From Oscillospiraceae bacterium (GTDB taxonomy: Bacteria > Bacillota > Clostridia > Oscillospirales > Oscillospiraceae), in the NCBI GenBank assembly GCA_017482385.1, contig JAFUNI010000024.1:1-64000 (forward strand): 64,000 nt of DNA, in the 5' to 3' direction. Position numbers and translations under genes: made by a program. The notes beneath the pieces were generated by a model that saw only the letters and a list, made by a program, of their open reading frames with translations, was not told where the DNA came from and searched no databases. Positions 10,276-32,826 of this stretch are shown here, piece by piece; position 1 is the stretch's first letter; every line of letters starts with the position of its first letter.

Positions 10276-10284
10276 ATATCCGAA

Positions 10285-10520
10285 AAATGAAAATTGTTCC
10301 CGTGGCCGGGTATAGCGCATGACGAGTACCTGGCTGAACAAGATAATGGGGTGTGAGTCCCCGCGCTGCCGGCGCTGTAAGTGTCGAGATAGCCTGCCGT
10401 TGACGGAAGTCAGTCATTGAGAGAAATCTTGAGAAGGCAGACAGGTTATCGCTTGAGACATAAGTCAGAAGACCTACGGGAATAGGATTGCTTCTTTGCA
10501 CCCGCGCGATGGGCAAAGGG
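10285..10520 (+). ncRNA. Cobalamin riboswitch 1
   Basis: A B12-box-like element AGTCAGAAGACCTACGG lies at 10463-10479. The core upstream has a GGGGTG...GTCCCC stem and a GCCGGCGCTGTAAGTG segment, as in the cobalamin aptamer. The outer helix is formed by TTCCCGT (10297-10303) and ACGGGAA (10476-10482). CTTTGC (10494-10499) and GCAAAG (10513-10518) form the P13 hairpin expected just after the B12 box. The expression platform is the strong terminator at 10545-10577, so ligand should stop transcription. Boundaries are approximate. Confidence 0.85.
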
Positions 10521-11464: not shown

Positions 11465-11728
11465 AAGCTTTACAAACTGCAGAGTTGGGGCAAAAGATCT
11501 ACTGGGAAAAGAAGGCGATTCATTTGGCGGTTACGAAAGCTGAACAAGGGAATCCGGTGTAAAACCGGAACACGGTGGGATGCCCACTGTGCTGTAAGCA
11601 TGAAGTTTGTTCCTTTTCTGCGAAAGCAGGTCATTGGGGAAACCTGAGAAGGCGAGGAACAAGCGTTGAGAAAATCCTCTGAACATGTAAGTCAGAAGAC
11701 CTACGAACTGTGCGTTTTTGCACAGCTT
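11465..11728 (+). ncRNA. Cobalamin riboswitch 2
   Basis: The aptamer core is clear: GGGAATCCGGTG...AACCGG at about 11548-11568, then GATGCCCACTGTGCTGTAA, and the B12 box AGTCAGAAGACCTACG at 11690-11705. CTGTGC (11708-11713) and GCACAG (11720-11725) form the P13 hairpin. No T-rich terminator follows before the ATG at 11823, so it may act on translation or on RNA stability. It immediately precedes the lipoprotein and the importer genes. The 5' boundary is approximate. Confidence 0.88.
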
Positions 11729-30752: not shown

Positions 30753-30761
30753 AGCAAATAG

Positions 30762-30851
30762 CGGTCATTGCGAACCAGTGCGCACACTGGTGTGGCAATC
30801 TCCCTCTTGTGATGGGGATTCCCACGGGCATAAATGCCCTCGGAATGACCG
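30762..30851. repeat. Palindromic intergenic repeat element (REP/MITE-like)
   Basis: The 90-base stretch begins CGGTCATT and ends AATGACCG, forming terminal inverted repeats. Inside are small palindromes (CCAGTGCGCACACTGG, GGGCATAAATGCCC). Elements of this style are scattered between genes in many Firmicutes. It has no coding potential. Only one copy is in the window. Confidence 0.6.
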
Positions 30852-30888
30852 ATTTTTGCGTAGGGTATCTGTTTTTGGTAGTTTCCCC

Positions 30889-30916
30889 TTGATTATTCTA
30901 TATTTTCTGCTACAAT
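30889..30916 (+). promoter_or_regulatory. Promoter of the structured RNA leader
   Basis: TTGATT (30889-30894), 16 bases, TACAAT (30911-30916). The predicted start near 30923 lies just before the first base of the RNA's closing helix at 30936. Confidence 0.6.
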
Positions 30917-30935
30917 TACAATGAATATTTATGTG

Positions 30936-31212
30936 CTTAGCCTGACCAATATAATCCAAACCCGTTCCTGAGCCGCGGGGCAGTCCCAATGCCTCGTTAC
31001 CGCTTCTTGAAGGGCGGCAAGCCCATCTGCGAAGCGGTGCCTTGCCTTAGAACCGCCCCGTAGCTCAGGAATCTGCGACCTAAGGGGGATGGATGAATGG
31101 TTCAGTCGAAGCATAGGAAGCCGATGGGCTGACGCCCATCAATGAATATAATGACGACTGAGCCAATCAGACGCACCCTTAGGCGGGTTCGGATTATATT
31201 GGCCAGGCTAAG
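30936..31212 (+). ncRNA. Unassigned ~280-nt structured RNA upstream of ABC-F gene
   Basis: A long closing helix pairs 30936-30964 with 31184-31212 (27 of 29 positions). Inside it lie TTCCTGAGC...CGGGGC (30965-30981) with GCCCCG...GCTCAGGAA (31055-31071), CCGCTTC (31000-31006) with GAAGCGG (31031-31037), CCTAAGGG (31079-31086) with CCCTTAGG (31176-31183), TGGTTCAGTCG (31098-31108) with CGACTGAGCCA (31155-31165) and GATGGGC-TGAC-GCCCATC (31123-31140). There is no reading frame and no terminator. The closing helix takes in the first bases of the Shine-Dalgarno of the ABC-F gene. I do not recognise the family; it lacks RNase P, SRP, tmRNA and T-box hallmarks. Confidence 0.8.
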
Positions 31213-31221
31213 GAGTTTGAG

Positions 31222-32826
31222 ATGATTACTGTTAATAATTTAGGTATGCAATTTGGCGGCCAGTGGCTGTTCCAGCATGTGGACCTGCAGTTCCTGCCCG
31301 GCAACTGCTACGGCATCATTGGCGCAAACGGCGCAGGTAAGTCCACCTTCCTGCGTATCCTCACCGGTGAGCTGGAGTCCACCAACGGCTCTGTTACCGT
31401 AGACCCGGACAAGCGTGTTTCCGTGCTGAAGCAGAACCAAAACGCCTACGACGAGTACACCGTTATGGACACTGTCATTATGGGCAATCAGCATCTTTAT
31501 GATGTGATGAAAGAAAAGGATGCCATCTACGAAAAGGAAGATTTCTCCGACGAGGACGGTATGCGTGCCTCCGAGCTGGAAGTGGAATTTGCAGAGATGG
31601 GCGGTTGGGAAGCAGAGTCCGATGCCTCCCGGATCCTCCAGGGTCTGGGCATCCCCACCGATATGCACTATGATATGATGGGTTCCACTGACCCCCGTCT
31701 GAAGGTGAAGATTTTGCTGGCCCAGGCACTGTTCGGCAACCCCGACATCATTATGCTGGACGAGCCTACCAACAACCTGGACATTGAAGCCATCAACTGG
31801 TTGGAAGACTTCCTGCTGGATTTCCCCGGTATGGTCATTGCCGTGTCCCATGACCGGCACTTCTTAAATACCGTCTGCACCCACACCGTGGATATCGACT
31901 ACGGCAAGATCAAGATGTATGTGGGTAACTATGACTTCTGGTACGAGTCTTCTCAGATGGTCCAGGCCATGATCCGCAACAAGAACAAGAAGAACCAGGA
32001 GAAGATCGAAGAGCTGCAGCTGTTTATCCAGCGGTTCTCCGCCAACAAGTCAAAGGCCAAGCAGGCAACCGCAAGAAGAAAGCTGCTGGACAAGCTGACT
32101 GTTGAGGAAATGCCCTGCTCCACCCGCCGTTACCCCTTCGTGGGCTTTATGCCGGAGCGGGAGCTGGGTAAGGATATTCTCACCGTCAACGATGTTTCTG
32201 TCACTGTGGACGGGGAAAAGCTGCTGGACAAGGTCTATTTCTCTGTGGGTAAGAACGACAAGATCGCCTTTGTAGGTGAAAACGAAAAGGCACAGACCGC
32301 ACTGATGCAGATCCTGATGGGCGAGTTAGAGCCGGATGAAGGCAGTATCAAGTGGGGCATCTCCACCATTCGCAGCTACCTGCCTAAGGATAATTCTGAA
32401 TATTTCGAGGGCAACGAGATGGAGCTGGTGGATTGGCTCCGCCAGTACTCTGCCAAGAAGGACGATGTGTACCTGCGAGGCTTCCTGGGCCGTATGCTCT
32501 TCGGCAACGACGATGTGTTCAAGCATGTCAATGTCCTCTCCGGTGGTGAGAAGGTCCGCTGTATGCTCTCCAAGATGATGCTCAGCGGCGCCAATGTGGT
32601 GCTGCTGGACCAGCCCACCAACCACTTGGATATGGAGTCCATCCAGGCTGTGAACAAGGGTCTAGAGGCCTTTACCGGCGTGGTGCTGCTGGCATCCCAC
32701 GACCACGAAATGCTCCAGTCTACCTGTAACCGTGTGATTGCCTTCCAGCCCGACGGCACAATCGTTGACCGCTACGGCACTTATGACGAGTACCTGGAAT
32801 GGGTGGCGCAGCAGAAGGAGAACTGA
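31222..32826 (+). CDS. ABC-F family protein with a degenerate second ATPase site
   Basis: A 534-residue soluble protein of the YkpA/YbiT-like ABC-F group, which act on the ribosome. Domain 1 has intact Walker A (GANGAGKST) and Walker B (IIMLDEPTNNLD) but its signature reads GSTDPRLKVK instead of LSGGQ. Domain 2 has an intact signature (LSGGEKVR) but Walker A is GENEKAQTA and the Walker B Glu is Gln (VLLDQPTNHLD). Site 1 is therefore complete and site 2 is lost in all three parts. The linker with IQRFSANKSKAKQA is normal. AGGAG, partly within the RNA helix, precedes the ATG. argS follows one base after the stop. Confidence 0.88.
   Translation: MITVNNLGMQFGGQWLFQHVDLQFLPGNCYGIIGANGAGKSTFLRILTGELESTNGSVTVDPDKRVSVLKQNQNAYDEYTVMDTVIMGNQHLYDVMKEKDAIYEKEDFSDEDGMRASELEVEFAEMGGWEAESDASRILQGLGIPTDMHYDMMGSTDPRLKVKILLAQALFGNPDIIMLDEPTNNLDIEAINWLEDFLLDFPGMVIAVSHDRHFLNTVCTHTVDIDYGKIKMYVGNYDFWYESSQMVQAMIRNKNKKNQEKIEELQLFIQRFSANKSKAKQATARRKLLDKLTVEEMPCSTRRYPFVGFMPERELGKDILTVNDVSVTVDGEKLLDKVYFSVGKNDKIAFVGENEKAQTALMQILMGELEPDEGSIKWGISTIRSYLPKDNSEYFEGNEMELVDWLRQYSAKKDDVYLRGFLGRMLFGNDDVFKHVNVLSGGEKVRCMLSKMMLSGANVVLLDQPTNHLDMESIQAVNKGLEAFTGVVLLASHDHEMLQSTCNRVIAFQPDGTIVDRYGTYDEYLEWVAQQKEN

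Follow-up and report, generated by a model that had tools for sequence, protein, structure and literature searches.

The structured leader of an ABC-F gene is one copy of a dispersed repeat of Oscillospiraceae

Introduction

The gene for an ABC-F ATPase at position 31222 of the window, the whole 64,000-nucleotide stretch of DNA analysed here, is preceded by a strongly structured leader. A sequence-only reading took this leader for an undescribed RNA with its own promoter, which could regulate the gene by exposing or hiding its Shine-Dalgarno (SD) sequence. Does the leader belong to the gene, or did it come from elsewhere? Comparisons with related genomes showed it to be a copy of a dispersed repeat of Oscillospiraceae, ~270 bp long and here called family A, and not a dedicated ABC-F leader RNA.

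Results

Layout and fold of the leader

Folding of window positions 30936-31221 gave -154.8 kcal/mol, the mean of shuffled sequences being -96.6 (z -11.3, with none of 100 shuffles as good). The 29-base closing arms match at 93%, in agreement with the 29-position closing helix of 27 pairs read from the letters, and AGGAG and the start codon ATG lie at 31211-31215 and 31222 as had been described. The features are as follows.

30889-30916, plus strand: promoter-like box outside the element (TTGATT, 16 nt, TACAAT); TTGATTATT is found upstream of element-free ABC-F loci
30938-31210, plus strand: family A repeat with the TA that flanks it at either end; same end points in the other copies of the genome
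30936-30964, plus strand: left inverted end, forming the 5' side of the closing helix; matches 31184-31212 reversed at 93%
31184-31212, plus strand: right inverted end, forming the 3' side of this helix; same 93% arm match
30965-31071, plus strand: arm 1, from the fold and the alignment
31079-31183, plus strand: arm 2, containing the core hairpin, from the fold and the alignment
31087-31174, plus strand: core common to repeats with other ends, from the match of models R1 and R2
31110-31152, plus strand: internal loop of isolated pairs around the terminal hairpin, from alignment column counts
31211-31215, plus strand: AGGAG, SD sequence of the host gene, adjoining the right TA; element-free ABC-F loci have their own AGGAG
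31222-32826, plus strand: host gene, an ABC-F ATPase nearest the YbiT model PRK15064, from the match to NF011646

The last two bases of the right closing arm are part of AGGAG, i.e. flank rather than element. By eye, the complement of arm 1 resembles a degenerate copy of the core. The terminal hairpin of arm 2 spans 31123-31140 with the loop TGAC at 31130-31133, and the isolated pairs of the surrounding internal loop are 31119-31143, 31113-31149 and 31110-31152, with 31116-31146 mismatched in this copy. The host gene matches NF011646 with E 3.7e-192 and 639.5 bits, which does not reach the curated cut-off of 762.

As had been expected of an RNA without a reading frame, the mechanical ORF list for 30936-31221 contains no long open frame, only a 61-residue minus-strand ORF at 30929-31114. 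A search of the window copy against Rfam 15 brought no family to its gathering score, and the sole match up to E 5 was mir-1238 at E 3.1, far under the cut-off of that family. The only matches at the gathering score were tRNAs adjoining copies of the element and, in other parts of the window, cobalamin riboswitches. Searches of the window and of the copies thus rule out a known Rfam family. The two cobalamin riboswitches lie on the plus strand at 10283-10495 and 11507-11722, ~1 kb apart. No paper on the family A repeat was found in the literature covered, a scope outside which most subscription journals fall, and a string search with four core sequences returned a single match, on human RNA polymerase III.

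Dispersed copies inserted at TA

Family A has inverted ends of ~27 bp with TA on each side. The genome of the window carries a second copy at 96% identity and a third, shortened copy on contigs C8 and C14, respectively, both with the same end points. Matches at E 0.001 were found in 10 of 99 relatives including the genome itself; five other genomes carry full or nearly full copies at 76-80%. Across the genus, the full-length query matches 26 of 136 genomes (own included), some over the core only. The catalogue of full-length copies holds 25 rows, 22 of which have TA at both ends. Removal of L070, the orthologue of L069, leaves 24 loci, in which the window's locus is represented by its counterpart in genome G127 (L072) and identical 3' junctions are counted once.

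Downstream of the copies lie mutually unrelated genes, which by their first residues we take to include secA, frr, purE, ftsE, udp and gdhA. At L013 (574-1003), a copy is located between a promoter-like box and two tRNA genes, directly before the latter. The gene that we take from its sequence to be secA provides filled and empty sites. In G127 the copy stands between TA and TA, followed by AGGAGACCGTT, and the corresponding sites of the window's own genome and of G141 have no copy, G141 having a single TA before AGGAG. The secA products of the window's genome and G127 are identical over the 209 residues compared. Among 30 fetched secA starts, 17 were readable at the site, and only that of G127 contains the element. 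The secA loci with and without the copy show that insertion occurred at the TA directly before AGGAG. Dispersal within the genome and among relatives, together with insertion at TA, identifies the leader as a mobile repeat, which the sequence-only reading had named as an outcome that would overturn its proposal. Phage or plasmid cargo was rejected as a source, with no match in two collections and no exact pattern match in viral contigs.

Insertion beside Shine-Dalgarno sequences

Mobility had been envisaged in that reading as random insertion. The sites of family A are strongly biased towards sense positions beside SD sequences. By a symmetric criterion, for which an SD-like motif and a start codon had to be present at a distance of at most 40 nt, 16 of the 24 loci have such a gene start on their sense side and two have one on the antisense side (p 0.0013). 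The control, TACTA-type repeats that share the core, gave 5 of 80 on the sense side and 15 of 80 on the antisense side, an antisense excess (p 0.04). AGGAG within 8 nt of the 3' end was observed for 10 of 24 family A loci versus 1 of 80 TACTA-type repeats. In the non-coding DNA of the window, defined with a rough ORF mask, AGGAG follows only one of 876 TA sites; TAAGGAG occurs seven times in the whole window, one of these being the element's own junction at 31209. Orientation counts from ORFs only were not significant, either for family A (16:8, p 0.15) or for genes flanking the TACTA-type repeats (78:59, p 0.12). Such counts are blurred by false open-ended ORFs: they call L020, L025 and L165 minus, although SD-led plus genes were found there.

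Covariation and a core shared by repeats with other ends

Comparison of 10 full-length copies showed that 29 of 89 pairs have changed on both sides, compared with 13.0 in shuffles (none of 500 as high), while 96.0% of the cells pair. In the closing helix, 10 of 26 pairs have changed on both sides and 95.8% of the cells keep pairing. The compensatory changes, together with the folding energy, uphold the fold that had been read from the letters as real and conserved.

The core, ~88 nt of arm 2, recurs in other repeats. It was found in 40 of 136 genomes of the genus, in 67 of 400 genomes and 43 of 106 genera of the family, and in 27 of 391 genomes and 21 of 223 genera of the class, the window's genome being included each time. 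Two genomes (G028 and G155) contain at least 32 core copies each. A core pattern scan of named genomes gave at least 116 stretches; among the 80 matches listed are Oscillospiraceae, Ruminococcaceae, Clostridia, Clostridiales, Eubacteriales, Intestinimonas, Eubacterium, Bacillota and 'uncultured bacterium'. One match to the pattern (L250) comes from a contig of the Oscillospiraceae isolate POC01. A further weak core match (E 9.6e-6) lies in the window's own genome at 37165-37245 of contig C8. The core points to a superfamily of structured repeats that is widespread in gut Clostridia and has no match in Rfam 15.

The internal loop of the core hairpin consists of four isolated pairs separated by two-base mismatches (tandem G·A). 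In 72 distinct cores, the innermost isolated pair is C-G in 38, A-U in 27 and U-A in seven and is never broken, and the neighbouring G·A and A·G are kept in 69 and 71 cores, respectively. The covariation score of these cores is 0.486, with 0.109 for shuffles and no more than 0.067 for slid controls; for 59 wider matches the values are 0.668, 0.177 and at most 0.107, the shuffle control ignoring relatedness. The core alignments come from model searches: the model of A4, the wide alignment, contains the isolated pairs and that of A3 the terminal hairpin only. A coding function of the core was rejected, as the frame that some copies show by eye is shifted in others by a loop one base longer, e.g. 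in L148 and L172.

The repeats with TACTA...TAGTA ends have equal 3-bp flanks, always of the form TNA, in 76 of 108 copies; re-pairing of the flanks (2000 trials) gave a mean of 24.4 and a maximum of 38. Other core-bearing repeats have, by eye, quite different ends (e.g. L350, L355, L356, L358, L364 and L365). Two cores on opposite strands are present in L358, L362 and L364 and, with weaker scores, in L357 and L366. Many TACTA-type repeats seem by eye to follow directly after terminator-like hairpins (e.g. L094, L106, L107, L137 and L154).

Truncated copies

Separate searches of 23 genomes with the 3' 84 nt and the 5' 84 nt gave 13 pieces without the 5' half (L203-L210, L030 and L486-L489). 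L209 and L486, whose left TAGCCTGAG resembles a normal end, look like internal deletions and were not counted as truncated. Six of the remaining 11 5'-truncated copies start at reference positions 193-201, four of them precisely at 198, immediately behind the hairpin loop 194-197. One of the 11, L210, also lacks the last 25 bases and ends at 253. Copies with the 5' part only were absent from the 23 genomes, apart from three cut by contig ends (L490-L492); L190 and L493 are products with both ends.

Beside the truncated copies, TAA is preserved in the left flank and a TA-type SD in the right one. At L204, two relatives read TTTTAAGGAGG; in the copy, the stop codon TAA is followed by the truncated element and then by TTAGGAGG. 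At L205, the left flank is shared with the relative G111 as far as TTAATTTCC. Simple deletion between GCC repeats predicts TAGCCC and was rejected, the hairpin-tip junctions reading TAAGCCC, TAAAGCCC, TTAAGCCC and TTAAGAGCCC. The pattern recalls target-primed insertion or cutting at the hairpin tip, neither of which is proved.

The ABC-F locus with and without the element

Of 30 ABC-F loci read, only the window's own carries the element; in addition to these 30, G127 carries it at the same locus. TTGATTATT was found within 330 nt upstream in 10 of the other 29 loci, all of which lack the element, so the box read earlier as the RNA's own promoter belongs with the ABC-F gene. The right closing arm does end at 31212, inside AGGAG, but this 2-nt overlap with the SD is not a trait of the family. 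Of the ten copies whose right TA is followed directly by AGGAG, five have a base ahead of the left TA that is unable to pair with the first base of the SD. The computed openness of the SD is 0.01-0.59 in the window and these ten copies versus 0.26-0.67 in six element-free orthologues. An SD-sequestering design was therefore rejected: SD pairing is not conserved and openness does not shift consistently. Because of the latter, the insert is more likely to be tolerated than to be maintained for regulation.

In two ABC-F leaders of other genomes (L046 and L048), other, unrelated-looking palindromic inserts were seen by eye between promoter and SD; the ABC-F leader therefore seems prone to repeated insertion. 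Another palindromic stretch, GGTCATTGCGAACCAGTGCGCACACTGG...GGAATGACC, lies at 30761-30852 of the window, just upstream of the ABC-F promoter, and similar stretches were seen by eye in other loci, e.g. L101 and L410.

Discussion

Positions 30938-31210 probably represent a mobile, non-coding repeat of MITE-like type that inserted, flanked by TA at both ends, downstream of the existing promoter and upstream of the SD of a YbiT-like ABC-F gene. The element would be transcribed together with the gene. With its inverted ends and two inner arms, the transcribed insert would fold as a closed module with the SD directly downstream, about as open as in element-free relatives, and the gene may tolerate the insert with little effect. 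Family A itself would be moved by an enzyme acting in trans. As in MITEs, the ends are terminal inverted repeats, the target TA is duplicated (a single TA stands at the empty secA site of G141), and the element is small, non-coding and present in several copies per genome (three in that of the window). No autonomous element with family A ends was found in 23 draft genomes, in which all end matches are known copies or remnants. This and three further observations fit a MITE-like repeat poorly. The near-symmetric ends leave the strong orientation bias unexplained, the 11 5'-truncated copies without 5'-only counterparts are atypical of MITEs, and the core is under a structural constraint that a mere passenger would not need.

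The sense and SD bias and the conserved fold could also be expected if family A, besides being a mobile repeat, had a host function as a leader RNA, e.g. as an RNase III substrate or an insulating leader, and were kept next to SD sequences by selection. As far as the available text of the sources goes, RNase III cleavage is reported for Correia/NEMIS transcripts (PMC10969869, PMC2229807). However, the downstream genes are mutually unrelated, most relatives have the same gene without the element, and the openness of the SD is unshifted. A host function is thus unlikely.

Movement via RNA is an unlikely explanation. Family A would here be a bacterial SINE-like element, read in sense, whose folded transcript is copied from its 3' end into another TAAGGAG site, with the tandem G·A core recognised by the mobilising machinery. 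Copying from the 3' end would account for the sense orientation, the SD targeting and the 5'-truncated copies broken at the hairpin tip, and the flanks of the truncated copies also speak for it. G·U exceeds A·C by 19 to 2 in A4, 11 of the 19 being in one column. The ratio is only 7:6 in A3 and 46:31 in the full-length copies (p 0.11). The full-length copies resemble DNA transposons in their inverted ends and in the simple TA that flanks them at both ends; the TACTA-type relatives have TNA duplications and no sense bias, cores on opposite strands point to DNA, and the truncated L210 lacks its 3' end as well.

The initial proposal of a cis-regulatory RNA, such as a riboswitch or attenuator, dedicated to the ABC-F gene, which the leader position, stable fold and covariation would favour, is most improbable, since 29 other ABC-F loci lack the element, copies precede unrelated genes and a tRNA pair, and SD pairing is not conserved. 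A strong, covarying leader fold need not mean a riboswitch.

Comparison with known systems

REPINs are doublets of REP sequences moved by RAYT transposases, which are Y1 transposases. Within the part of their description available, they share with family A and its relatives a folded single-strand structure, and some of the relatives have two cores head to head; family A and its relatives are much larger and have target duplications.

The BOX repeats of Streptococcus pneumoniae appear in transcripts, where they extend the 5' and 3' regions of operons, and are likened to family A by this description, not by sequence; SD-adjacent insertion is not among the BOX features in the available part of the source (PMC3049150). 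The resemblance to the MITEs Correia/NEMIS, ERIC and RUP lies in the small, non-coding, dispersed elements with inverted ends, TA at the ends and folded transcripts, as far as these are covered by the available text of the sources (PMC2229807, PMC10969869). Family A differs from them in its length (~270 bp), its two arms, its sense insertion beside SD sequences, its 5'-truncated copies, a core common to repeats with other ends and another target duplication, and a parent element not found in the 23 draft genomes. An ordinary MITE picture leaves unexplained the combination of one core with different ends and target duplications, as well as the sense insertion beside SD sequences. Family A is best read as a MITE-like repeat of a new build.
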